Source of the DNA: Gemmatimonadaceae bacterium
GTDB taxonomy: Bacteria; Gemmatimonadota; Gemmatimonadetes; Gemmatimonadales; Gemmatimonadaceae
Length of the DNA stretch: 32,098 nucleotides
Assembly: GCA_024710705.1 (NCBI GenBank)
Contig: JANJUF010000038.1
Coordinates: 1 to 32,098 of the forward strand
Direction: 5' to 3'
Position 1 is the stretch's first letter. Each line of letters begins with the position of its first letter. Both the position numbers and the translations under genes were made by a program. Positions 16,850 through 27,410 of the stretch are shown here, piece after piece. The notes under the pieces are model-generated. The model searched no databases. It was not told the DNA's origin and was given only the letters and a program-made list of their open reading frames with translations.

Positions 16850-19800
16850 TTACGCACGATCGGTCGGGATCATGAACTCCTCGGTCTTGGGCCGTTCGGG
16901 GAACTTGAACCACCCCGCCACCCGCTCCCGGAACTCGTCCATCACTTCGTAGACGGTCGGGATCACGAGCAGCGTGAGGAGGGTCGAGGTGATCGTTCCG
17001 CCGATCACGGCACGTCCCAGCGGCGCGCGGAAGTCCGCGCCTTCACCGAGGCCGAGCGACACCGGGATCATGCCGGCGATGAGCGCGAAGGTCGTCATGA
17101 GGATGGGCCGCAGGCGCACGCGTCCCGCCTCGATGATCGCCGCCCGCCGTTCCATGCCCTGTTCCTGGCCCCATTTGGCGAAGTCGATCAACAGGATCGC
17201 GTTCTTTGCCACGATTCCCATCAGGAGGATCACGCCGATCATCGACATGATGTTCAGCGTATCCCCGGTGATGAGGAGCGCCAGCACCACACCGATCAGC
17301 GAGAGCGGCAGCGAGATCAGGATGGCGATGGGTTCGAGAAATGACCCGAACTGCATCACGAGGATCAGGTACATCAGCATCAGCGCGATGCCCAGCGCCG
17401 CCAGGATGGCCCCGAACACTTCCGCCTGGTCCTTGGCCTCGCCGCCGAACGACCAGCGGATGCCCTCCGGCACCTGCAGCCGCTCGAGGCCACGCACAAT
17501 GTCGCCGGTCACCTCCCCGAGCGAGCGCCCGGAGAGATTCGCCTGCACGACGATGACATTGTCACGATCCAAGTGCGAGATCTTCGCCGGGCCGAGGCCC
17601 TGCGTGACCGTGGCGAGTTGGCCGAGCGGCAGCATCTGCATCGGCGCCCCGCCCTGCCCGCCAACGGCGATGGGCAACCGCTCGATGTCGGAGATCCGTG
17701 TCCGCGATTCCGGCGCGAGCCGCACGCGCACCTTCCGGTTCTCCCCTGACGGGTCCACCCAGTCGCCGGCGTCCACGCCAGCGAAGGCGGGCCGCAGCGA
17801 CTGGGCGATCTGTCCCACCGTTACGCCCATCGAACCCGCCAACGCGCGGTCCAGCGTGATCTCGAGCTCGGGCTTCTGGCCCTTGGTCGAGAGCGAGACG
17901 TCCACCGCACCGGGCACCGCACGCACCATCTGGAGTACGGAGTCGGCGAACATCTGCAGCTGACGTCCATCCACTCCGCGCAGTTCCAGCTGCACCTGCT
18001 TGATGGCGCCGCCAAAGCCCGACGTGAACACGGCCACCGTCGCACCGCCAATCGATTTCACGTCCTCGCGCAGCGTCGCGCCGAACTGTTCCTGCGAGAT
18101 CTCGCGTTCGGCCTTCGGCGTCATGCGCACGTACACGGAGCCCAGGTCCACCGCGCCCAGCGCCTCCGACGGATCCATCCCACCGCCGGCGCCGATGGTC
18201 GCGAAGGTGTAGCGCACTTCGGGGTGCGCGCGTGCCACGCGCGCGGCCTCCTCGGTCTTCATGCGCGTGTACTCGAGGTTCGAGCCCGGCGGCGTCTCCA
18301 CCTGGACGATCACTTCCGAGTTGTCGGTGAGCGGCACGAAGCCGAAGCCACCGAACGTGGATTGCAGCGCCAGCGCGCCAACCAGCGACCCGACAGCCAG
18401 GAAGATCATCGCCAGCCGGTGATCCAGCGCCCAGCCGATGACCTTGGTGTATCCACCGGCCATCCGGTCGAACCACTCGTTGAACCGCACCAACTGCCTC
18501 GAGACCCAATTCCGGTGTTCGTGCTTCTCGATCTCCGGGTCCGGCCAGTAGGCCGAGAGCATCGGGTCCAGCGAGAAGGAGACGAACAACGACACCAGCA
18601 CCGCGCAGGCGATCGTCAGCGCGAAGGGCTTGAACCACTGCCCCGGCAGTCCCGCCATGAAGCCGATCGGCACAAACACCGCGACGATGGAGAATGTCGT
18701 GGCGGCGACGGCCAGTCCGATCTCATCGGTGCCTTCGTGCGCCGCACGGAAGTGGTCTTTCCCCATCTCCACGTGCCGCACGATGTTCTCGCGTACCACG
18801 ATGGCATCGTCGATCAGGATGCCGATGGCCAGCGAGAGCCCGAGCAGTGACATCGTGTTGAGCGTGAAGCCGAAGGCCCACACCGCCACGAAGCTCGCCA
18901 GCACCGAGATCGGGAGCGCCAGGCCGGTGATGACCGTCGAGCGCCACGAGTTGAGGAACAGGAACACCACCAGCACGGTGAGCATCGCCCCTTCCACCAG
19001 CGTGCTCTGGACATTCGCCACCGACGCCTTGACGCGATCGCCGGAGTTGCGCACCACGTCGATGGTGGTGCCGGGGGGCAGCGTGGCGCGCAGTTCCGCC
19101 ACCGCATCGGTGACCCGCTCCGCGACTGCGGTGGTGGAGTAGCCCTTCGCCTTCTTCACCTGGATGCCAACGGCGTCGCGGCCGTTGAAGAGCGCTGCCG
19201 TGCGCGGCTCGGCGGTGCCGTCGCGCGCGGTGGCCACCTCGCCGAGTCGGATCGAGCGGCCGCCCTTCTCGGCCACCACCAAGCGCAGGAAGTCCTCGGG
19301 CGTCTCCAGCTTGCCTTTCAGGCGGATGGCGCGCTCGTCGAGCGTGCCGTTGATGCGGCCCACCGGCGCCGCGAGGTTCTGCGACTGCAGCGCCGCGACG
19401 ACCTGCGCCACCGTGATGCCTGCCGCCTCCATCGCATCGGGACGGATCTCCACCGTGAGTTCACGTTCCACGCCGCCGATCACGACCGCCTCGGCCACGC
19501 CGGGAATGCCGCGCAGGGCGCGGGTGATCCCGGGGTCGGCGATCCGCGTGAGGCCGGGCGCGTCGTGCGTGCTCGAGTTGAGCGACAACTCGATGATCGG
19601 CTGGTCGGCCGGATCGAAGCGCGTGAGCACCGGCTCCTTCATCTCCGCCGGAAGGTCCGAACGGATAGCGCTGATCTTGTCGCGGATGTCCTGCGAGGCC
19701 TGCTGGAGGTCCTTCTCGAACACAAAGAACACCGTGACGTTGGCGAAGCCGTCTTGGGCCGCGCCGGAGATGCGGTCCACGCCGGAGATGCCGGAGACCG

Positions 19801-20008
19801 CCTCCTCGACGCGATCAAGCACTTCACGCTCCACCACGTCGGGCGAGGCGCCGGGATACGGGATGGCGACATTGATGATCGGCTGCTGGACGTCCGGGAA
19901 CTCGTCTGTCTCCAGCTGCCAGAGCGAGAAGAGACCGAACACCACCAGCGCCACCATCGACACCACGGTGACCAGCGGCCGCTTGATCGCGAAATCGGAG
20001 ATGAGCAT
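16850..20008 (-). CDS. RND efflux permease, AcrB/HAE1 type
   Basis: 1052 residues, the normal length for AcrB. The N-terminus MLISDFAIKRPLVTVVSM leads into the first transmembrane helix. The proton-relay pair of acidic residues is in GILIDDAIVVRENI, and the third relay residue, lysine, is in GIVAKNAILLIDFAK. Two large periplasmic loops and twelve predicted helices follow the RND pattern. It exports small hydrophobic or amphiphilic compounds across the inner membrane using proton motive force, together with the adaptor and TolC-type genes immediately upstream. It follows the adaptor stop by 12 bases with a GAGGCG site. Specificity cannot be inferred; the relay and lack of heavy-metal motifs favour the HAE rather than the metal (HME) group. 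Confidence 0.94.
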   Translation of the reverse strand: MLISDFAIKRPLVTVVSMVALVVFGLFSLWQLETDEFPDVQQPIINVAIPYPGASPDVVEREVLDRVEEAVSGISGVDRISGAAQDGFANVTVFFVFEKDLQQASQDIRDKISAIRSDLPAEMKEPVLTRFDPADQPIIELSLNSSTHDAPGLTRIADPGITRALRGIPGVAEAVVIGGVERELTVEIRPDAMEAAGITVAQVVAALQSQNLAAPVGRINGTLDERAIRLKGKLETPEDFLRLVVAEKGGRSIRLGEVATARDGTAEPRTAALFNGRDAVGIQVKKAKGYSTTAVAERVTDAVAELRATLPPGTTIDVVRNSGDRVKASVANVQSTLVEGAMLTVLVVFLFLNSWRSTVITGLALPISVLASFVAVWAFGFTLNTMSLLGLSLAIGILIDDAIVVRENIVRHVEMGKDHFRAAHEGTDEIGLAVAATTFSIVAVFVPIGFMAGLPGQWFKPFALTIACAVLVSLFVSFSLDPMLSAYWPDPEIEKHEHRNWVSRQLVRFNEWFDRMAGGYTKVIGWALDHRLAMIFLAVGSLVGALALQSTFGGFGFVPLTDNSEVIVQVETPPGSNLEYTRMKTEEAARVARAHPEVRYTFATIGAGGGMDPSEALGAVDLGSVYVRMTPKAEREISQEQFGATLREDVKSIGGATVAVFTSGFGGAIKQVQLELRGVDGRQLQMFADSVLQMVRAVPGAVDVSLSTKGQKPELEITLDRALAGSMGVTVGQIAQSLRPAFAGVDAGDWVDPSGENRKVRVRLAPESRTRISDIERLPIAVGGQGGAPMQMLPLGQLATVTQGLGPAKISHLDRDNVIVVQANLSGRSLGEVTGDIVRGLERLQVPEGIRWSFGGEAKDQAEVFGAILAALGIALMLMYLILVMQFGSFLEPIAILISLPLSLIGVVLALLITGDTLNIMSMIGVILLMGIVAKNAILLIDFAKWGQEQGMERRAAIIEAGRVRLRPILMTTFALIAGMIPVSLGLGEGADFRAPLGRAVIGGTITSTLLTLLVIPTVYEVMDEFRERVAGWFKFPERPKTEEFMIPTDRA

Positions 20009-20020
20009 TCGCGTCGCGCC

Positions 20021-21196
20021 TCAGCGCTGGGTCAGGGTGTCGGAGGGGCTGCTCACGCGGACGCGCGAGCCAACCGAGACCCCGAGGGCGGCGCCGACGA
20101 GGACGGTGTCCCCGGCCACCAGCCCCTCACGGATCTCCACACGGTCGGTGGCTTCATCCCGCGCGCCGACCGTCACGGTCACGCGCTCGACGATCCCATC
20201 CTTCAATCGCACCACTTGCGGCGTGAGCCCACGCTGGTCCAGCGCGAGCGCGGGGATGGTCAGCGCCTCACGCGTCTCGTGGGCCACCCGTCCTTCGGCG
20301 AAGAGCCCGGCCACCAGGCGCTGCCCTGTGTTCGGGATCCGCACGAACAGCCGCACTTGGCGCGTCTGCGGATCGGCCGAGGGATTGACGCTGGAGATCC
20401 GCCCTTCGAACACGCGGTCCGGATAGCCGGTGACGGAGAACCGCACCGGCGCGCCGACCCGCACCTGCGCCAGCTCGGTGGCCGGCACCGCCGCCTCAAG
20501 CCGCATGGTCGAGGGATCCACCAGCGCAAACAGCGGCGCCCCGGGATTCACGATGTCGCCGGGGTTCACGAAGCGTTCGGAGACCACGCCGTCGTACGGC
20601 GCGAGCACGTTCGTCGCATCGCGATTCTCCTCGGCGGCCGAGAGCCGCGCTCGGGCATCGTCAAGCATCGAGCGCGCCGAGAGATCGCCGCGCCGCGCGT
20701 TCTCCAGGTCGCGGTCGCTCACCGCACCGGCAACATGCAGCCGCTCCGCGCGGGCAAGTTCGCGTGCCGCGAGGTCCGCCGCCGTCTGGGCGGCGGTGAA
20801 GCCGGAGCGCGCGCCAAGGTAGGCGTCTTCGATCGCACGGTCATCGATCTTGGCGAGCGACGTGCCCTTGGCGACCACGGCGCCGGGATCGTGGAAGACC
20901 TGCACGACCGCACCCGGCACCTCGGCGCGAATCTGCGCCGTGCGCTCGGCGACCAGCGAGCCGGAGAGAATCGGTCCGATGGAAAGCGTCGTGCGCGTTG
21001 CGACGCCGATCGCTTCCGGGCCGACGTTTACGACAATGGCGTTGGCCGGGGCCTCTTCCGCGGCGTCTCCGCGCCCGCAGGCCGAGAGGGACGTGGCAAG
21101 CGCAAGCAGGGCAAGACCGGCAGCGCGACGGGCGCGTGAAGACATCGGGAGCATCCCCCGCGAAGCGGGTGTCTGGGGAGTGTGGGTGGTGGACAT
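20021..21196 (-). CDS. RND efflux periplasmic adaptor lipoprotein (membrane fusion protein)
   Basis: 391 residues. The lipobox LSAC places the lipidated Cys at about residue 40, giving inner-membrane anchoring. The order then is biotinyl-lipoyl half (AEVPGAVVQVFHDPGAVVAKGTSLAKID), an alpha-hairpin (GFTAAQTAADLAARELARAE to ARARLSAAEENRDAT), the second lipoyl half (VLAPYDGVVSERFVNPGDIV), a beta-barrel and a membrane-proximal domain. It links the permease to the TolC-type channel. The ATG overlaps the stop of the TetR-TolC gene by one base (TGATG), with GGAGGG at good spacing, so translation is coupled. The first residue of a longer reading would be TTG and is less likely. Confidence 0.92.
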   Translation of the reverse strand: MSTTHTPQTPASRGMLPMSSRARRAAGLALLALATSLSACGRGDAAEEAPANAIVVNVGPEAIGVATRTTLSIGPILSGSLVAERTAQIRAEVPGAVVQVFHDPGAVVAKGTSLAKIDDRAIEDAYLGARSGFTAAQTAADLAARELARAERLHVAGAVSDRDLENARRGDLSARSMLDDARARLSAAEENRDATNVLAPYDGVVSERFVNPGDIVNPGAPLFALVDPSTMRLEAAVPATELAQVRVGAPVRFSVTGYPDRVFEGRISSVNPSADPQTRQVRLFVRIPNTGQRLVAGLFAEGRVAHETREALTIPALALDQRGLTPQVVRLKDGIVERVTVTVGARDEATDRVEIREGLVAGDTVLVGAALGVSVGSRVRVSSPSDTLTQR

Positions 21197-23166
21197 CAAC
21201 GGATCCCTCCCAGCGGAAGGTCCTTCAGCAGGGCAAGGCGGAGCTTGGCGATCTCGAGATCGCGTGCGCTGTTCACGCGTTGGAGCCGCGCCTGCTCGAG
21301 TTGCACGCGTGACTCGGTGAGTTCCACGGCAGTTGAGAGGCCTTCCTGGAAGCGCACTTCGGCGATGCGATACGCCTGTTCCGCCTGCGCATCCGTGCCG
21401 ACCGATGCGAGGTAGGCGGCCTGCGCCTGCTCGAGCGCGTTCAGGGCAAGGAGGGCATCGAGCTCGGCGCCTTCGCGGGACTGCTGCAGCCGCGCGCGGG
21501 CCTCAGCGACGTTGGCCTCGGCCACCATCCGGTCGCCGGCGAGGCGCCCACCGCTGAACACGGGCAAGGACAGGCCGAGCGTGACCGTCCAATTGGGGAA
21601 GTAGAGATCGAAATCGCTCGGGAGGAAGGTGCCGTCTGGTGGGTAGGCGAAGCGCTGATAGGTGGAGCTGAGTTGCAGCGCCGGAAGCCGCGCGAGCCGG
21701 GCCGCCGTGAGGGCCTGCTCCTGCGCGCGCAATTGGGCCTCGGCCTGGCGTACCGTCGCCCGCGCCGCGACGCTCGTATCGGGCGTGACAGTCCGGGACT
21801 CGTCGAGGCGCACGGGCGCCATCGCCTCGCTCACGATGCCGGCGTCGTCGCGGATGGGTGTGGTGAGCGTGAGTGGGGCCTGCAACGGCAGCGCGAGGAG
21901 TTGCTTGAGTCGCAGGAGCGCCGCGGTGCGATTGCCGCGGGCCTGGATGGCGAACGGGCGCTGGTTGTCGCGCGTCACCCGCGCGCGCAGCAGGTCGAAC
22001 TCGGAGGCGGTCCCGACTTCGCGTGCCAGCTGCACTTGGACGAGCGTACGCTCGGTTAGCGCGAGCGTGGAGTCGGCGATGGCGGCGAAGCGTTCGGCGG
22101 CGACGGCGTCGTAGTACGCCTGAGCCACATCGAGCAGCGCCTGCGCCCTGGCCGAGGCCAGCGAAAGGTCCGCTGCGTCGCGTCCCGCCTCGGCGCCAGC
22201 GCGCTGCGCCGACAGCCGCCCCGCGGTCCAGAGATTCTGAGTGGCGCTGAGCGAAAGCACGGCCGTGTTGGGCGCCGCGAAGATCGCGGCGAGCGGCGAA
22301 TTGGCGATGCCTCCGCCCCCGCTCGTATCCGGGAACTGCTCTGAGATAGCCTGGAACTGATTCTGCAGCGCGCGTTGGTACGATGCGCCGCCGTTGATCT
22401 GCGGAAGCAGTTGGCTGTTGGTCTGACGCAGCTGTCCTTGCGCACGGTCGAGTCCGGCGGTGGCGGCACGCACCGCCGTGCTCCGCTGTTCGGCGAGGCG
22501 GAGCGCGTCGTCGAGCGAAAGGGCGCTGGGCTGGGCGTTGGCGGCCGCCTGCGCGTGGAGCGAGAGCGGATGGACCAGGAGCAGGAGCGCAGCGACCGTG
22601 GCACCGATGGCGCGCAGGAAGAGTCGGACGTAGGTCGCCGGCGCCTGTTCGCGCGGCGGAAACATGTCGGGCATCAGGTCACGCCCCATGGCGTCGGCAA
22701 AGATGGTTCCCATCAGCATCGCGGCCGCCGGCTTGGCGTCGGCGCTGGTCGGGATGAAACGGTGTTCGGCGAGCCGCTCGATGTAGCTGGTGAGCTCGAC
22801 GAAGGACTGCGCCGGATGCGAGGCGGTGGAGTGGGCGCACTCGCGACGTTCGTGCATCTCGGCCATCGAGGCACGGATCATTCCGGCCGACTCGAGAAGG
22901 AAGGCGTGATCCTCGGCGGCCCAGGAGGTGAGCTCGCGGTTCGGATCCTCCGGGACGTCCGGCAGCGGCGTGCGGGTGACGTTGACTGCGCGGCAGCGGA
23001 TGGCTTCGTCGATGAGCGCCGCCTTTGAGCCGAACAGCCGGAAGAGCGTGACTTCATTGACGCCGGCCTCTTCGGCGATGCGCCGCGTGGTCGCGCCGCG
23101 GAAGCCACCCTCGGCGTAGACACGGACCGCAGCGTCCAGAAGTTGCTGTTTTGTGGGTTCAGACAT
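21196..23166 (-). CDS. TetR-type DNA-binding domain fused in one frame to a TolC-family outer-membrane factor
   Basis: 656 residues in one uninterrupted frame. Residues 1-185 are a TetR/AcrR regulator: the helix-turn-helix (26-48) reads TTRRIAEEAGVNEVTLFRLF followed by GSK, then an all-helical ligand domain. Without a stop it passes into TVAALLLLVHPLSLHAQA (190-207), a hydrophobic stretch ending in a good signal-peptidase site. Residues 208-656 are a full-length TolC family channel with paired repeats (LDDALRLAEQRSTAV; TVTLGLSLPVFSGGRLAG) and a coupled overlap with the adaptor gene. ATG 23166 (MSEPTKQQ) is chosen over TTG 23187; no strong ribosome-binding site is seen. An internal ATG at 22665 (MFPPREQ) could give a channel with a 40-residue signal peptide. 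The TetR half has no stop of its own, so fusion is forced unless there is a frameshift or sequence error. Confidence 0.88.
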   Translation of the reverse strand: MSEPTKQQLLDAAVRVYAEGGFRGATTRRIAEEAGVNEVTLFRLFGSKAALIDEAIRCRAVNVTRTPLPDVPEDPNRELTSWAAEDHAFLLESAGMIRASMAEMHERRECAHSTASHPAQSFVELTSYIERLAEHRFIPTSADAKPAAAMLMGTIFADAMGRDLMPDMFPPREQAPATYVRLFLRAIGATVAALLLLVHPLSLHAQAAANAQPSALSLDDALRLAEQRSTAVRAATAGLDRAQGQLRQTNSQLLPQINGGASYQRALQNQFQAISEQFPDTSGGGGIANSPLAAIFAAPNTAVLSLSATQNLWTAGRLSAQRAGAEAGRDAADLSLASARAQALLDVAQAYYDAVAAERFAAIADSTLALTERTLVQVQLAREVGTASEFDLLRARVTRDNQRPFAIQARGNRTAALLRLKQLLALPLQAPLTLTTPIRDDAGIVSEAMAPVRLDESRTVTPDTSVAARATVRQAEAQLRAQEQALTAARLARLPALQLSSTYQRFAYPPDGTFLPSDFDLYFPNWTVTLGLSLPVFSGGRLAGDRMVAEANVAEARARLQQSREGAELDALLALNALEQAQAAYLASVGTDAQAEQAYRIAEVRFQEGLSTAVELTESRVQLEQARLQRVNSARDLEIAKLRLALLKDLPLGGIR

Positions 23167-23187
23167 GGACGGTAGGTAGACTGGCAA

Positions 23188-23201
23188 GTGAAGTCATTCA
23201 C
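23188..23201. promoter_or_regulatory. Palindrome 1 upstream of the TetR-TolC gene
   Basis: GTGAA-GTCA-TTCAC, a perfect 5-4-5 inverted repeat 21 bases upstream of the ATG at 23166. It is a candidate TetR operator that would block the efflux promoter. Confidence 0.55.
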
Positions 23202-23202
23202 A

Positions 23203-23222
23203 AAGCAAGCGAACACTTGCTT
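23203..23222. promoter_or_regulatory. Palindrome 2 upstream of the TetR-TolC gene
   Basis: AAGCAAGCGAACACTTGCTT, a perfect 7-6-7 inverted repeat one base away from palindrome 1. Its left half GCAAGCGAA resembles the GCAAGTGAA at 23184-23192, so the two sites share a half-site. Size and symmetry fit a TetR dimer site; it is the better operator candidate. Confidence 0.6.
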
Positions 23223-23384
23223 ACAACGAAATCAAGTGGCGATTTGTTTCGCCTCCCAGAACTGCGCTCCTAGGACCTCGAGTCCGACATTAGTTTCGGC
23301 TTTTATTCGGTTTTGTCAAGGTCGCATCGTTGGCACTCGCTGGGTAATGCGAGCGATTCTCCGACTCCTCGCGTTCACCAACTC
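23223..23384. other. AT-richer leader between efflux operon and TonB receptor
   Basis: This part of the 218-base divergent gap is noticeably richer in A and T than its surroundings (for example GGCTTTTATTCGGTTTTGTC), so it probably carries the receptor promoter and a long leader. I see no convincing minus-35/minus-10 pair, riboswitch or ribosome-binding site. Confidence 0.4.
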
Positions 23385-26360
23385 ATGACCCGACTCGTCC
23401 TCGCCGCGCTCCTCGCACTGGTACCCAGCGGCCTTCGTGCGCAAACCGCGTCCAGCGGCGCGCTCGCTGGCGTGGTCACCGACGCCACCGCTTCGCCGAT
23501 TTTCGGCGCGATCATAGAACTGCGGGGGACAGCGCTTCCGACCGCGCGCACGGCGATGGCCGACAGCCTCGGTCGATTCGTACTCGGGGACCTTCCGCCT
23601 GGACTCTACGATCTCACCGCGCGCGGCTTCGGCTTCCAGCCCGCCACGCTCGGCGACATTCGCGTGGCAGAAGGGAGGACCACCGAAGTGCGCGTCGTGC
23701 TGACGCAAACGGCTGCGCGCTTGTCCACCGTGCAGATCGTCGCGAGCGCCACCCAAGTGGATGCCACGACACCGGCGCAGGTGGAGCGCCTGGAGCGCCG
23801 GGACATGGCGCGTCTCGCCACCGGCCGCGACGCGGCGAGCCTTGTCGGGCTCGTGCCCGGCTCGCGCGCCGGTGCGGTGTGGGGAGGCGGCGGCGAGCTC
23901 TCCAACAACGTGCAACTCGACGGCATCAACGCTGGCCATCCTGGCATTGGCGGTGATTTCCTCCGGCCGAGCGTGGACTGGATTGATCGCCTTGAGGTGC
24001 GTGGCCTCGGCGCCGGCGCCGACCAGGGAAACTTCCAGGGTGGCGTCATCAACGCGGTCACGCGCACCGGCACCGATCGGCGCGAAGCGACCGTCCGCAC
24101 CAACTTCGAAGCGGCGTCCCTCTCGGAATCAAACTTCAACCTGCGCGAAGAGGGCGTGGAGCAGGCCTCGCGCCGAGAGGTAAGCGGCGAGGCGGCGGGG
24201 CCGATCATTCCCGGCACACTCCACTACTTCCTCGGGGGTCAGGCGGTCGCCCGAGACCTGCGGGTGCCAGACCTCACCCTGTCCAACACAGCCGTGGGTT
24301 ATCGCGACGTGCAGACCGCGCTCGTGGATGGGCGCGGCCTCGCCAAGCTTACGTGGCGCCCCGACGAAGCCGGGCGACTCGACCTGCTCATCGGCGGGGG
24401 AAGTGCCGCCACGGAACGGGCCGGACTCTCCGGCGCCGACGACCCGTCGTCCACGCAGCGGGTCACCGCACCGTCGCTCTTCTATGAAATCGCGTGGACC
24501 TACGATCGTGGCGCGCGGCACGCCTTCGACCTTCGTCTCCTTGGCTACACGGCCACGGAGGAGCGCGTCGGATATGAGGGGCGCGACATCCCCGGCGTAC
24601 GCGCATTCGCCCTCGCGCGTGAGCCCGGATTCCAGAACGCCGACTTCTCCGAGCGTCGCGATCCGTCCAGCCTCGCACTGAAGGGTTCGTGGCGCACCCA
24701 CGTTCGCCTCTTCGGCCTGCAGCACCGGCTCGTGAGTGGTGCGGAGTTGAGCGGTGGACGGTGGCGCCAGGAGCGTACCCGCAATGGGGGACTGACCTGG
24801 CGTCCCTTCCCCGATCCCGACGTCGGGTTCATCGATCCCGCCGATCCCACGACCTGGGCCGCCACGGGAACGCAGTGGGGCGGCGAGGTCCGTCTCCGAT
24901 CCGAGGTGCGCAGCGCCGCCCTCTTCGTGCAGGACGAGATCGCCCTCGGTTCGCGCGTCACCCTCACGCCCGGCGTCCGCGCCAGTGCCTGGGAAGGCAC
25001 TCTGCGCGCGCCGTCGGGACTGGACCCCAGCGTGCGCGCCACGGGATGGGATCCGCGCGTCGGTCTCGCCTGGGACGTGCTCGGCGACGGTACCACGGCC
25101 CTGAAGACGCACTGGGGGCGCTATCACCAAGGCATGGCGGGGGCGCTCTTTGATCGGCTCGCCGGTGCGGAGGTGTACTCCAACGAGCTCTTCTACACCA
25201 ACGCCCCGCGCCCCACCGATCCCCGCGGCACGCTCACCCCGGAGGAGCGCGATGCGACGTATCTCGACGTGACCGGTGCGCCGCTCATTCCGAACGTCAA
25301 GCGCTTCGATGAAGCGGGGCGGGCGTCGGGATACCGTCAGCCCTACATGGACCAGCTCGTGGTCGCCCTCGAGCGCTCCTTCGGCCAACGCTGGAAGGTC
25401 GAACTGGTCTACACCGATCGTCGCAATCGCAACCTGGTCGGGTTGCTCGACCGTAACCTCGCGTCGAACTTCACGCCGATCCGTGACGTCGCCGTGGGGA
25501 CGCGCTACGGCAGTACGCTGCTGGATCCAGACGGTGCGCGGCTCGCGCTCCCCGTGGTCTGGATCCCCAACAACGACCTGCGTGATGCCCTCATCCTGTT
25601 GCGGGCCCGCAGGTTGCCCGCGCCGCCGGGATTCTCCTACGACACGATCACAACCCTGACGTGGGATCCCGACCTCGCAGTCACGACGCTGCCTGATGCC
25701 CGCCGCACCTTCCGGCAGGCCTACGTTGCGGTGCGGACCGAACACGAGCGTTGGAACGCCGCCGGCTCCTTCGCTTGGACGCAGCTGCAGGGCAACGTCG
25801 CCGGTGTCACCGCGTTCGGCGGGGCCGGTGATGCGTTTCGGGCGGGTGGCTGGGCCCGACCGAACGAGGCCGTCAACAACGAGGGACCCTTGGGCGATTT
25901 TGCCGAGCTTGAGGCCAAGTTCTGGCTCGGCGCGCAGCTTCCATGGGGATTGCAGGGCGGCGTAACCCTCACCCACCTCACCGGCGAACGCGTCACGCCG
26001 TTCTTCGAGATGGAGGCGTTCCGGTATCGCTTTGCCACCTCGCATGTCGGCGGTGCCGTCTTCGAGCCGGAGCTGTTCCAAGGCGCCAACGGCCAGACCC
26101 TCTTCCTCGAGCCACGCGGGGCGCGCCGCTACGGCGACCGCACCCTCGTGGACTTCCGCCTCGAACGCGCCTTCGTGATGCAAGAGCAGACGCTGGCGTT
26201 GACGCTCGAGCTGTTCAACGCTCTTGGCGAGAATGCCGCAACGTCAGTCAATCTCCGCGTGGAGGACAACTTCCTCTTCGACGAGACCACCGAGTACGCC
26301 GCCGTCCGACGGCGCGTCGAGCCGCGCCGCATCCGGCTCGGCATGCGCATCGACTTCTGA
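23385..26360 (+). CDS. TonB-dependent receptor with N-terminal carboxypeptidase-regulatory-like domain (Oar-like)
   Basis: 991 residues. A signal peptide (MTRLVLAALLALVPSGLRAQ) is followed by a carboxypeptidase D regulatory-like beta-sandwich (about 25-105; GVVTDATASPIFGAIIELRG, ADSLGRFVLGDLPPGLY), a plug domain (about 115-235; LVGLVPGSRAG, NNVQLDGIN, GGVINAVTRTGT), and a 22-strand-type barrel ending in GMRIDF with a terminal Phe. The order matches Oar/SusC-like outer-membrane receptors. I cannot find a clear TonB box. It would import or bind a large substrate at the outer membrane, identity unknown. There is no SusD partner next to it. It is divergent from the efflux operon, with candidate TetR operators in the shared region. 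ATG 23385 gives the clean signal peptide. Confidence 0.88.
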   Translation: MTRLVLAALLALVPSGLRAQTASSGALAGVVTDATASPIFGAIIELRGTALPTARTAMADSLGRFVLGDLPPGLYDLTARGFGFQPATLGDIRVAEGRTTEVRVVLTQTAARLSTVQIVASATQVDATTPAQVERLERRDMARLATGRDAASLVGLVPGSRAGAVWGGGGELSNNVQLDGINAGHPGIGGDFLRPSVDWIDRLEVRGLGAGADQGNFQGGVINAVTRTGTDRREATVRTNFEAASLSESNFNLREEGVEQASRREVSGEAAGPIIPGTLHYFLGGQAVARDLRVPDLTLSNTAVGYRDVQTALVDGRGLAKLTWRPDEAGRLDLLIGGGSAATERAGLSGADDPSSTQRVTAPSLFYEIAWTYDRGARHAFDLRLLGYTATEERVGYEGRDIPGVRAFALAREPGFQNADFSERRDPSSLALKGSWRTHVRLFGLQHRLVSGAELSGGRWRQERTRNGGLTWRPFPDPDVGFIDPADPTTWAATGTQWGGEVRLRSEVRSAALFVQDEIALGSRVTLTPGVRASAWEGTLRAPSGLDPSVRATGWDPRVGLAWDVLGDGTTALKTHWGRYHQGMAGALFDRLAGAEVYSNELFYTNAPRPTDPRGTLTPEERDATYLDVTGAPLIPNVKRFDEAGRASGYRQPYMDQLVVALERSFGQRWKVELVYTDRRNRNLVGLLDRNLASNFTPIRDVAVGTRYGSTLLDPDGARLALPVVWIPNNDLRDALILLRARRLPAPPGFSYDTITTLTWDPDLAVTTLPDARRTFRQAYVAVRTEHERWNAAGSFAWTQLQGNVAGVTAFGGAGDAFRAGGWARPNEAVNNEGPLGDFAELEAKFWLGAQLPWGLQGGVTLTHLTGERVTPFFEMEAFRYRFATSHVGGAVFEPELFQGANGQTLFLEPRGARRYGDRTLVDFRLERAFVMQEQTLALTLELFNALGENAATSVNLRVEDNFLFDETTEYAAVRRRVEPRRIRLGMRIDF

Positions 26361-26418: not shown

Positions 26419-26880
26419 ATGGCCAAGCAGAAACCCGACAACCCGACCCTCGCTGCCAAGCTCACCCCGCTGCAGTACGAGGTGACGCAGTGCAGCGCCA
26501 CCGAGCCCCCGTTCCGCAACGAGTTCTGGGATCACCACGAGCCCGGGATCTACGTGGATGTGGTGTCCGGCGAGCCCCTGTTCTCCTCCACCGACAAGTT
26601 CGACTCCGGCACGGGGTGGCCGTCCTTCACCAAGCCCCTCGTGGATGCGCAGGTGAAGGAGCACGAGGATCGCTCCTACGGCATGCGGCGCGTGGAAGTG
26701 CGTTCGGCCGAGGGCGACTCGCACCTCGGGCACCTCTTTCCCGATGGCCCCGGCCCGACCGGCATGCGCTACTGCATCAACAGCGCCTCGCTCCGGTTCA
26801 TCCCGGCGGCGCGCCTGACGGCCGAGGGCTACGCCAACTTCGCGAGCCTGTTCCCCGACATCGCGCAGGAGTCGGCATGA
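26419..26880 (+). CDS. msrB: Peptide methionine-(R)-S-oxide reductase
   Basis: 153 residues. Catalytic Cys119 is in [13 protein letters not shown], and [22 protein letters not shown] are conserved MsrB segments. The four zinc-binding cysteines of many MsrBs are absent ([10 protein letters not shown]), and the site often holding the resolving Cys (SGCGWP) is Thr. Cys25 in [11 protein letters not shown] is the likely resolving residue, as described for Xanthomonas-type MsrB. It reduces methionine-R-sulfoxide in proteins using thioredoxin. No signal peptide, so cytoplasmic. Its stop overlaps the msrA start by four bases (ATGA). Confidence 0.95.
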
Positions 26881-27410
26881 CGAGCGAAGTCGCGACACTG
26901 GCCGGCGGCTGCTTCTGGTGCCTCGAGGCCGTCTACCTCGACCTCCGCGGCGTCACGAAGGTGAAGAGCGGCTACGCCGGCGGACACGTGGCCAACCCGA
27001 CGTACGAGCAGGTCTGCGGCAAGCAGACGGGCCACGCCGAGGTGGTGCAGGTGACCTTCGACCCGTCCGTCATCAGCTACGGCGACCTGCTCGACGTGTT
27101 CTTCACGATCCACGATCCGACCACGAAGGATCGCCAGGGCAATGACATCGGCCCGCAGTACCGCTCGGCGATCTTCACGCACTCGACAGAGCAGGCTCAG
27201 GTCGCCCGCGAGCGCCTCGCGGCGGCCCAAGCGCACTGGGACGATCCGATTGTCACCGAGCTGCAGCCGCTGGACAAATTCTGGCCAGCCGAGAACTACC
27301 ACGACAACTACTTCGCGCGGAATCCGCAGAATCCATACTGCGCGGTGGTGGTGGCGCCCAAGGTGTCCAAGGCACGAAAGCTGTTCGTCGAGAAACTCGC
27401 GCGGCCGTGA
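26877..27410 (+). CDS. msrA: Peptide methionine-(S)-S-oxide reductase
   Basis: 177 residues with the catalytic motif GGCFWC at 10-15 (Cys12 nucleophile), [26 protein letters not shown] and [19 protein letters not shown], the last carrying a C-terminal cysteine that may act as resolving residue. It repairs the S epimer of methionine sulfoxide and complements MsrB encoded just before it with a 4-base overlap. The stop shares one base with the start of the next exported-protein gene (TGATG), so all three are translationally linked. Confidence 0.95.

Follow-up and report, generated by a model that had tools for sequence, protein, structure and literature searches.

Can the repressor of an RND pump operon and the outer-membrane channel of the same pump be made as a single polypeptide, given that one chain would then have to serve both sides of the cell membrane? 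This question is raised by a locus of a Gemmatimonadaceae bacterium (assembly GCA_024710705.1, contig JANJUF010000038.1), which we analyzed as a window of 32,098 nucleotides, the whole stretch of DNA considered here.

One open frame holds a complete repressor and a complete channel

Positions 21196-23166 of the minus strand form a single 656-codon frame that runs from a TetR-type repressor into a TolC/OprM-type channel without a stop codon, which confirms the first-pass annotation of one polypeptide frame. Its parts are as follows:

22603..23166, minus strand: TetR-type repressor half, residues 1-188 (Pfam TetR_N, model helices, Foldseek match to a TetR-DNA complex)
22552..22623, minus strand: junction, residues 182-205, comprising the end of the last TetR helix and a hydrophobic core (alignment, hydrophobicity, low-confidence stretch of the model)
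21199..22551, minus strand: TolC/OprM-type outer-membrane channel half, residues 206-656 (Pfam OEP, Foldseek)
21196-21198, minus strand: stop codon of the fusion (sequence)

Both halves are complete, with a signal-peptide-like segment between them (approximately residues 182-205). The Pfam model TetR_N matches residues 9-55 (E 1e-14; 54.5 bits against a cut-off of 24) and is the sole Pfam domain of the N-terminal part; the complete TetR-type helix-turn-helix half that had been claimed from the sequence is thus borne out. The channel half matches the OEP model (TolC family) in two stretches, the best of which covers residues 467-647 (E 5.6e-49). In an AlphaFold2 model built from 17 aligned fusions (mean pLDDT 77.3, pTM 0.54), TetR helices span residues 6-187 and are followed by a short helix at 189-197; residues 191-212 are modelled with low confidence, and the second half consists of the long helices and strands typical of TolC. 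Foldseek matched the large part to TolC, OprM and OprJ-type structures and the small part, more weakly and over about 190 columns, to TetR structures, including the Ms6564-DNA complex (4jl3, E 8e-5); the model and these matches together indicate that the all-helical second domain of the TetR fold is present in the repressor half. In a profile search of solved structures, the best 60 of 146 rows were TetR proteins, AcrR, TtgR and NalC among them, whereas the identity of the channel was established by Pfam and Foldseek rather than by this search. A close separate copy of the fused TetR was not found in the same genome: the next best TetR match there is just 25% identical.

The fusion is conserved within the genus

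Nearly all records at hand are draft metagenome genomes, a setting in which two genes might be joined by an error of assembly or binning. However, the same domain order and junction recur in relatives, for which the first-pass annotation had proposed to search: the fused junction is present in 16 of the 17 genomes of the window's genus, and the whole frame is intact in 14. In a search of all 179 genomes of the family, thirteen of the 16 other members of the genus proved to have a stop-free TetR-TolC frame at 65-77% identity, and one fused member of the genus is a single-contig genome listed as 100% complete. We therefore reject an assembly error, and an artefact of either kind is hardly credible. 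Two drafts (G142 and G147; loci L041 and L069) have the fused junction and a frame broken inside the channel, at different places, and G135 (71% complete) yielded no close match to the fusion. The chance openness of GC-rich DNA was rejected as well: separate neighbors have a stop and a start of their own, including cases in which the frame of the channel is open far upstream. Thus, this is a genuine in-frame gene fusion, and TetR and TolC annotations on one frame need not mean an assembly error.

We then surveyed this locus in 152 of the 179 genomes of the family (89 + 63); the 27 left out mostly had no close listed match. The gene pair is fused at the junction in 23 genomes, 119 have separate tetR and tolC genes as same-strand neighbors, and 10 lack a tetR just upstream or reach a contig end. 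G110, which has its own tetR just upstream, was counted as separate, and G142, with its fused junction and broken frame, as fused; by frame, 16 of 62 named loci are fused. The genus that includes G021-G038 is mixed, with 6 fused and 9 separate pairs and 3 genomes that gave no close match; that of G120-G130 has 7 separate pairs and 4 genomes without a close match, and G092, the sole member of its genus in the search, is fused. Elsewhere in the phylum, the 17 loci examined in other families include no fusion and 10 pairs of separate neighbors. The first-pass annotation had reasoned that a stop between the two domains in close relatives would count against a real fusion: no such stop is found within the genus, but sister genera do have one. 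Since the separate state is the commoner one in sister genera, the fusion is most simply read as the derived state.

Two records titled as other taxa were also encountered. A record titled Candidatus Kuenenia stuttgartiensis (L100) has a Gemmatimonadaceae-like tetR-tolC-adaptor-permease operon and may be misnamed or mixed, and a Myxococcaceae metagenome record (L136) has a TolC 42% identical to that of the window; an adaptor and permease of this kind were not found in the latter locus. Thirteen plasmid records had a match, none covering 80% of the query; among the matches listed (ten), only the TetR part was matched.

The junction resembles an internal export signal

A hydrophobic stretch with a cleavage-like site had been noted ahead of the channel, and it is indeed there: the segment at approximately residues 186-207 ends in LHA-QA, with the expected cut between A205 and Q206. 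This A-Q pair is invariant across the alignment of 17 fusions; of the 23 fused loci, 22 have it where signal peptidase would be expected to cut, and G092 has S-Q. The window junction contains a hydrophobic 11-mer with a Kyte-Doolittle mean of 2.56; such an 11-mer is present in all 23 fused junctions (mean 2.17-3.33, computed for fused junctions alone). The putative signal peptide was judged by eye and by hydrophobicity. An N-terminal signal peptide of the kind that TolC-type factors carry was not seen in the fusion: unless translation begins internally, the signal-like segment is itself internal, after 188 TetR residues.

How the two reading frames were joined differs among lineages. In the closest unfused relatives, a basic tail closes TetR ahead of its stop codon, and the candidate start codons of tolC range from one base upstream of this stop to about 60 bases downstream. 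In the window's genus, TetR has neither the basic tail nor the stop, tolC has neither its start nor the front part of its signal peptide, and the last TetR helix continues into the hydrophobic core. A basic linker precedes the core in G021, G025, G029 and G037, in G030 and G036, and in G092, and its sequence differs from group to group.

The fusion probably arose four times

A tree of the adaptor and permease that accompany the fusion was built from 85 of 89 loci, including 21 fused ones and 12 rows less than half filled. It requires four changes between the separate and fused states, and its well-supported branches force all four. A tree of the TetR core plus channel (55 loci) also requires four, with a bootstrap range of 4-4 (5-95% of 200 trees) and no tree giving one. 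The TetR-only and channel-only trees again need four changes, three of them forced by well-supported branches; G092 meets another long branch (G101) there and was flagged as unsure. Because the trees need four changes and the junctions differ, the simplest reading is that four independent fusions probably took place, in the window's genus and in three related lineages; the fourth is represented by one draft genome on a long branch (G092). A single origin, or the transfer of one fused gene, is disfavored by the four changes that both the partner-gene tree and the trees of TetR and channel require, and by the differing junctions.

The fused repressor retains its operator and DNA-reading helix

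The fusion is the first gene of an RND pump operon, in which the adaptor and permease genes adjoin it on the same strand and the adaptor ATG at 21196 overlaps its stop codon by one base; the partnership of the channel with this pump is predicted from the neighborhood. The following features accompany it:

23205..23220, no strand assigned: predicted operator palindrome, GCAAGT-GTTC-GCTTGC when read on the minus strand (38 nt upstream of the ATG; conserved ahead of tetR throughout the family)
20021..21196, minus strand: periplasmic adaptor, RND_mfp (sequence; HlyD_D23 and RND_mfp matches)
16850..20008, minus strand: RND permease, ACR_tran (Pfam profile match)

Several other genes lie nearby. The promoter region of the fusion is shared with a divergent gene (23313-26360, plus strand) that encodes a TonB-dependent-receptor-like protein with a carboxypeptidase-regulatory domain; similar genes were seen in only 2 (L064 and L069) of the 40 larger loci from relatives. 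Two methionine sulfoxide reductases, MsrB (SelR) and MsrA (PMSR), adjoin at 26419-27410 (plus strand).

When up to one mismatch is allowed, the predicted operator, generalized as GCAAGY-N4-RCTTGC, stands ahead of tetR in 22 of the 23 fused loci and in 62 of the 64 separate ones, a count made in the same loci from which the motif was derived. It took in 87 of 89 loci, G089 and G111 being omitted as too near a contig end. With up to two mismatches allowed, the motif occurred in none of 261 stretches inside genes and in 3 of 435 shuffles. G036 scored four mismatches because its site lies outside the 120-nt stretch; a 150-nt stretch shows the palindrome with both half-sites. The only exact match of GCAAGYNNNNRCTTGC in the window's genome is the one at 23205-23220, and across the genus's 17 genomes 24 of 26 exact sites stand in this promoter, often paired 22-23 bases apart. 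The reversed pattern, used as a control, also gave 26 matches over the genus, the same total as the motif, so that the argument rests on where the sites are located. Two exact copies 22-23 bases apart are present in 9 of the 17 genomes; in the window a single exact copy is accompanied by an isolated half-site, GCAAGT, near 23184 (region 23183-23222), so that its second copy looks degenerate.

Residues 36-43, which form the recognition helix, are nearly identical in 23 fused and 65 separate proteins. Judged by sequence, both the DNA-reading helix of the fusion and the operator in its promoter match those of unfused relatives.

The TetR half might be kept mainly as a long leader for the channel, as a decayed or modified repressor that no longer regulates. 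Two observations point this way: dN/dS of TetR tends to be higher in six fused pairs (0.10-0.28) than in eight separate ones (0.02-0.15), and the basic TetR tail is missing in the genus. For the channel, the corresponding values are 0.06-0.20 (fused) and 0.04-0.34 (separate). The fused TetR is thus constrained, perhaps more loosely, as its dN/dS is far below 1 but above that of most separate pairs. By these values both halves are under purifying selection and look functional; with the recognition helix conserved as well as in unfused proteins and the operator still standing before the gene, we consider loss of regulation improbable.

How the fused frame may be expressed

In the window, there is no in-frame ATG, GTG or TTG between residue 168, which lies inside TetR, and the channel; thus, every channel molecule begins inside TetR. 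In G036, the first start codon beyond the TetR motif MMP comes only after the expected cut, and in G029 the sole start codon in this stretch is an ATG inside the last TetR helix. Together, the frame and the junction alignment give one open frame with a putative internal export signal.

The model that accounts best for these observations, to which we assign a probability of roughly 0.55, is that of a polyprotein in which cutting at an internal signal peptide yields an autorepressor and an exported channel. From an ancestor with tetR and tolC as neighboring genes, the fused genus would have come to use the last TetR helix (YVRLFLRAIG) in place of the positively charged front of a signal peptide. 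The chain, translated through, would be taken to the Sec machinery by the internal signal, the channel half would be exported, and signal peptidase I would cut before Q206. The TetR half, now ending in a short hydrophobic tail, would remain cytoplasmic, bound to the membrane at first, and would repress its own operon through its one operator. We infer this course of translation, export and cutting, as well as the location and activity of the TetR half, from the features described above. Points against it are the TetR dN/dS, higher in the fused than in most separate pairs, and the awkwardness that a dimeric repressor joined to a trimeric channel would present unless the two are cut apart.

Alternatively, there may be two products: the whole fusion, or a prematurely ended form of it, would serve as repressor, and the channel, whose signal peptide would then be an ordinary one of some 24-41 residues, would come mainly from a start inside the end of tetR: M165 or M168 in the window, a GTG at residue 181 in many relatives. 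The frame would remain open owing to an overlap, in one frame, between the end of tetR and the beginning of tolC. The first-pass annotation had proposed the ATG at 22665 as an internal start; this codon (M168) exists, as do those for M165 (22674) and M160, all inside TetR.

22663..22674, minus strand: M165 (22674) and M168 (22665), the final in-frame ATGs ahead of the channel and candidate internal starts (sequence, Shine-Dalgarno energies)

The Shine-Dalgarno duplex energy is -5.9 for M165 and -1.5 for M168 in the window, and the former resembles that of permease starts (median -5.6) and is better than that of most background codons (median -2.4). M165 is invariant in the 17 aligned fusions, M168 is present in 13 of 14 in the window's genus, and in 12 of 15 genus loci the valine codon of YVRLFLR is GTG, at a point suited to the start of a short signal peptide; moreover, the genes of separate relatives overlap or are closely spaced. 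However, the conservation of M165 is due to something else, as it falls within a TetR motif (MMP or LMP) that is common in unfused relatives too. Of 111 internal candidates over the fused loci, not one reaches -6, and their medians (-1.5 for ATG, -2.1 for GTG) are no better than background (-2.4), although tetR starts are weak too (medians 0.15 and 0.6), as are the best separate tolC candidates (-2.8), whereas permease starts are not. The GTG at the valine is missing in the window and in its near relatives L006 and L007, and in G036, without a start codon after MMP, an internal start would need an n-region of more than 40 residues. We thus regard internal initiation as possible but the less probable of the two accounts.

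The first-pass annotation had further suggested that the repressor might be tethered to the membrane and tied to channel assembly in a feedback loop, which would go further than the usual autoregulation of an operon by its repressor. Within the polyprotein model, repressor activity might depend on the export and cutting-off of the attached channel: if export or processing were slow, TetR would stay tied to the membrane, its reach to the operator would change, and pump expression would follow channel biogenesis. This reading, with the repeated origin of the fusion taken as a result of selection for such coupling, is a speculative extension, which we consider unlikely.

Comparison with known systems

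The repressor half resembles the TetR/AcrR repressors of RND pump operons (AcrR, TtgR, NalC) in its N-terminal helix-turn-helix, its helical ligand domain and a palindrome in the promoter of its own pump operon, here the predicted operator. AcrR, TtgR and NalC are separate soluble proteins, whereas here the chain continues into the channel. The channel half resembles TolC/OprM factors in its two OEP repeats, its fold and its operon with an adaptor and a permease; however, what precedes it is 188 in-frame repressor residues rather than a short signal peptide.

The cytochrome b/c1 gene fbcH, which encodes a bacterial polyprotein cut at an internal signal peptide, likewise holds two proteins in a single frame and has an internal export signal in the second of them. 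The difference is that one product here is a transcription factor of the same operon, and that the cutting is predicted.

ToxR and CadC are membrane-integrated one-component regulators (PMC5430869, PMC6320335), and like them the fusion would have a cytoplasmic DNA-binding part joined via one hydrophobic segment to a part outside. However, its helix-turn-helix is of the TetR rather than the ToxR type (Pfam gives only TetR_N at the N-terminus and no ToxR-type DNA-binding domain), and the outside part is a channel behind an expected cut rather than a sensor.

We found no description of a TetR-TolC fusion among the literature matches listed, which come from sources mostly without subscription papers; the first-pass statement that no characterized example is known agrees with these matches, which covered such fusions and membrane-bound TetR proteins. 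The parts are of known kinds, whereas their combination and its repeated origin appear to be undescribed. A cytoplasmic repressor and the outer-membrane channel of the same pump, brought repeatedly onto one frame, amount to a natural test case for the question of whether Sec-dependent export can take a transcription factor along without abolishing its activity. Because fused and unfused relatives have the same operator, the effect of the fusion alone is measurable.
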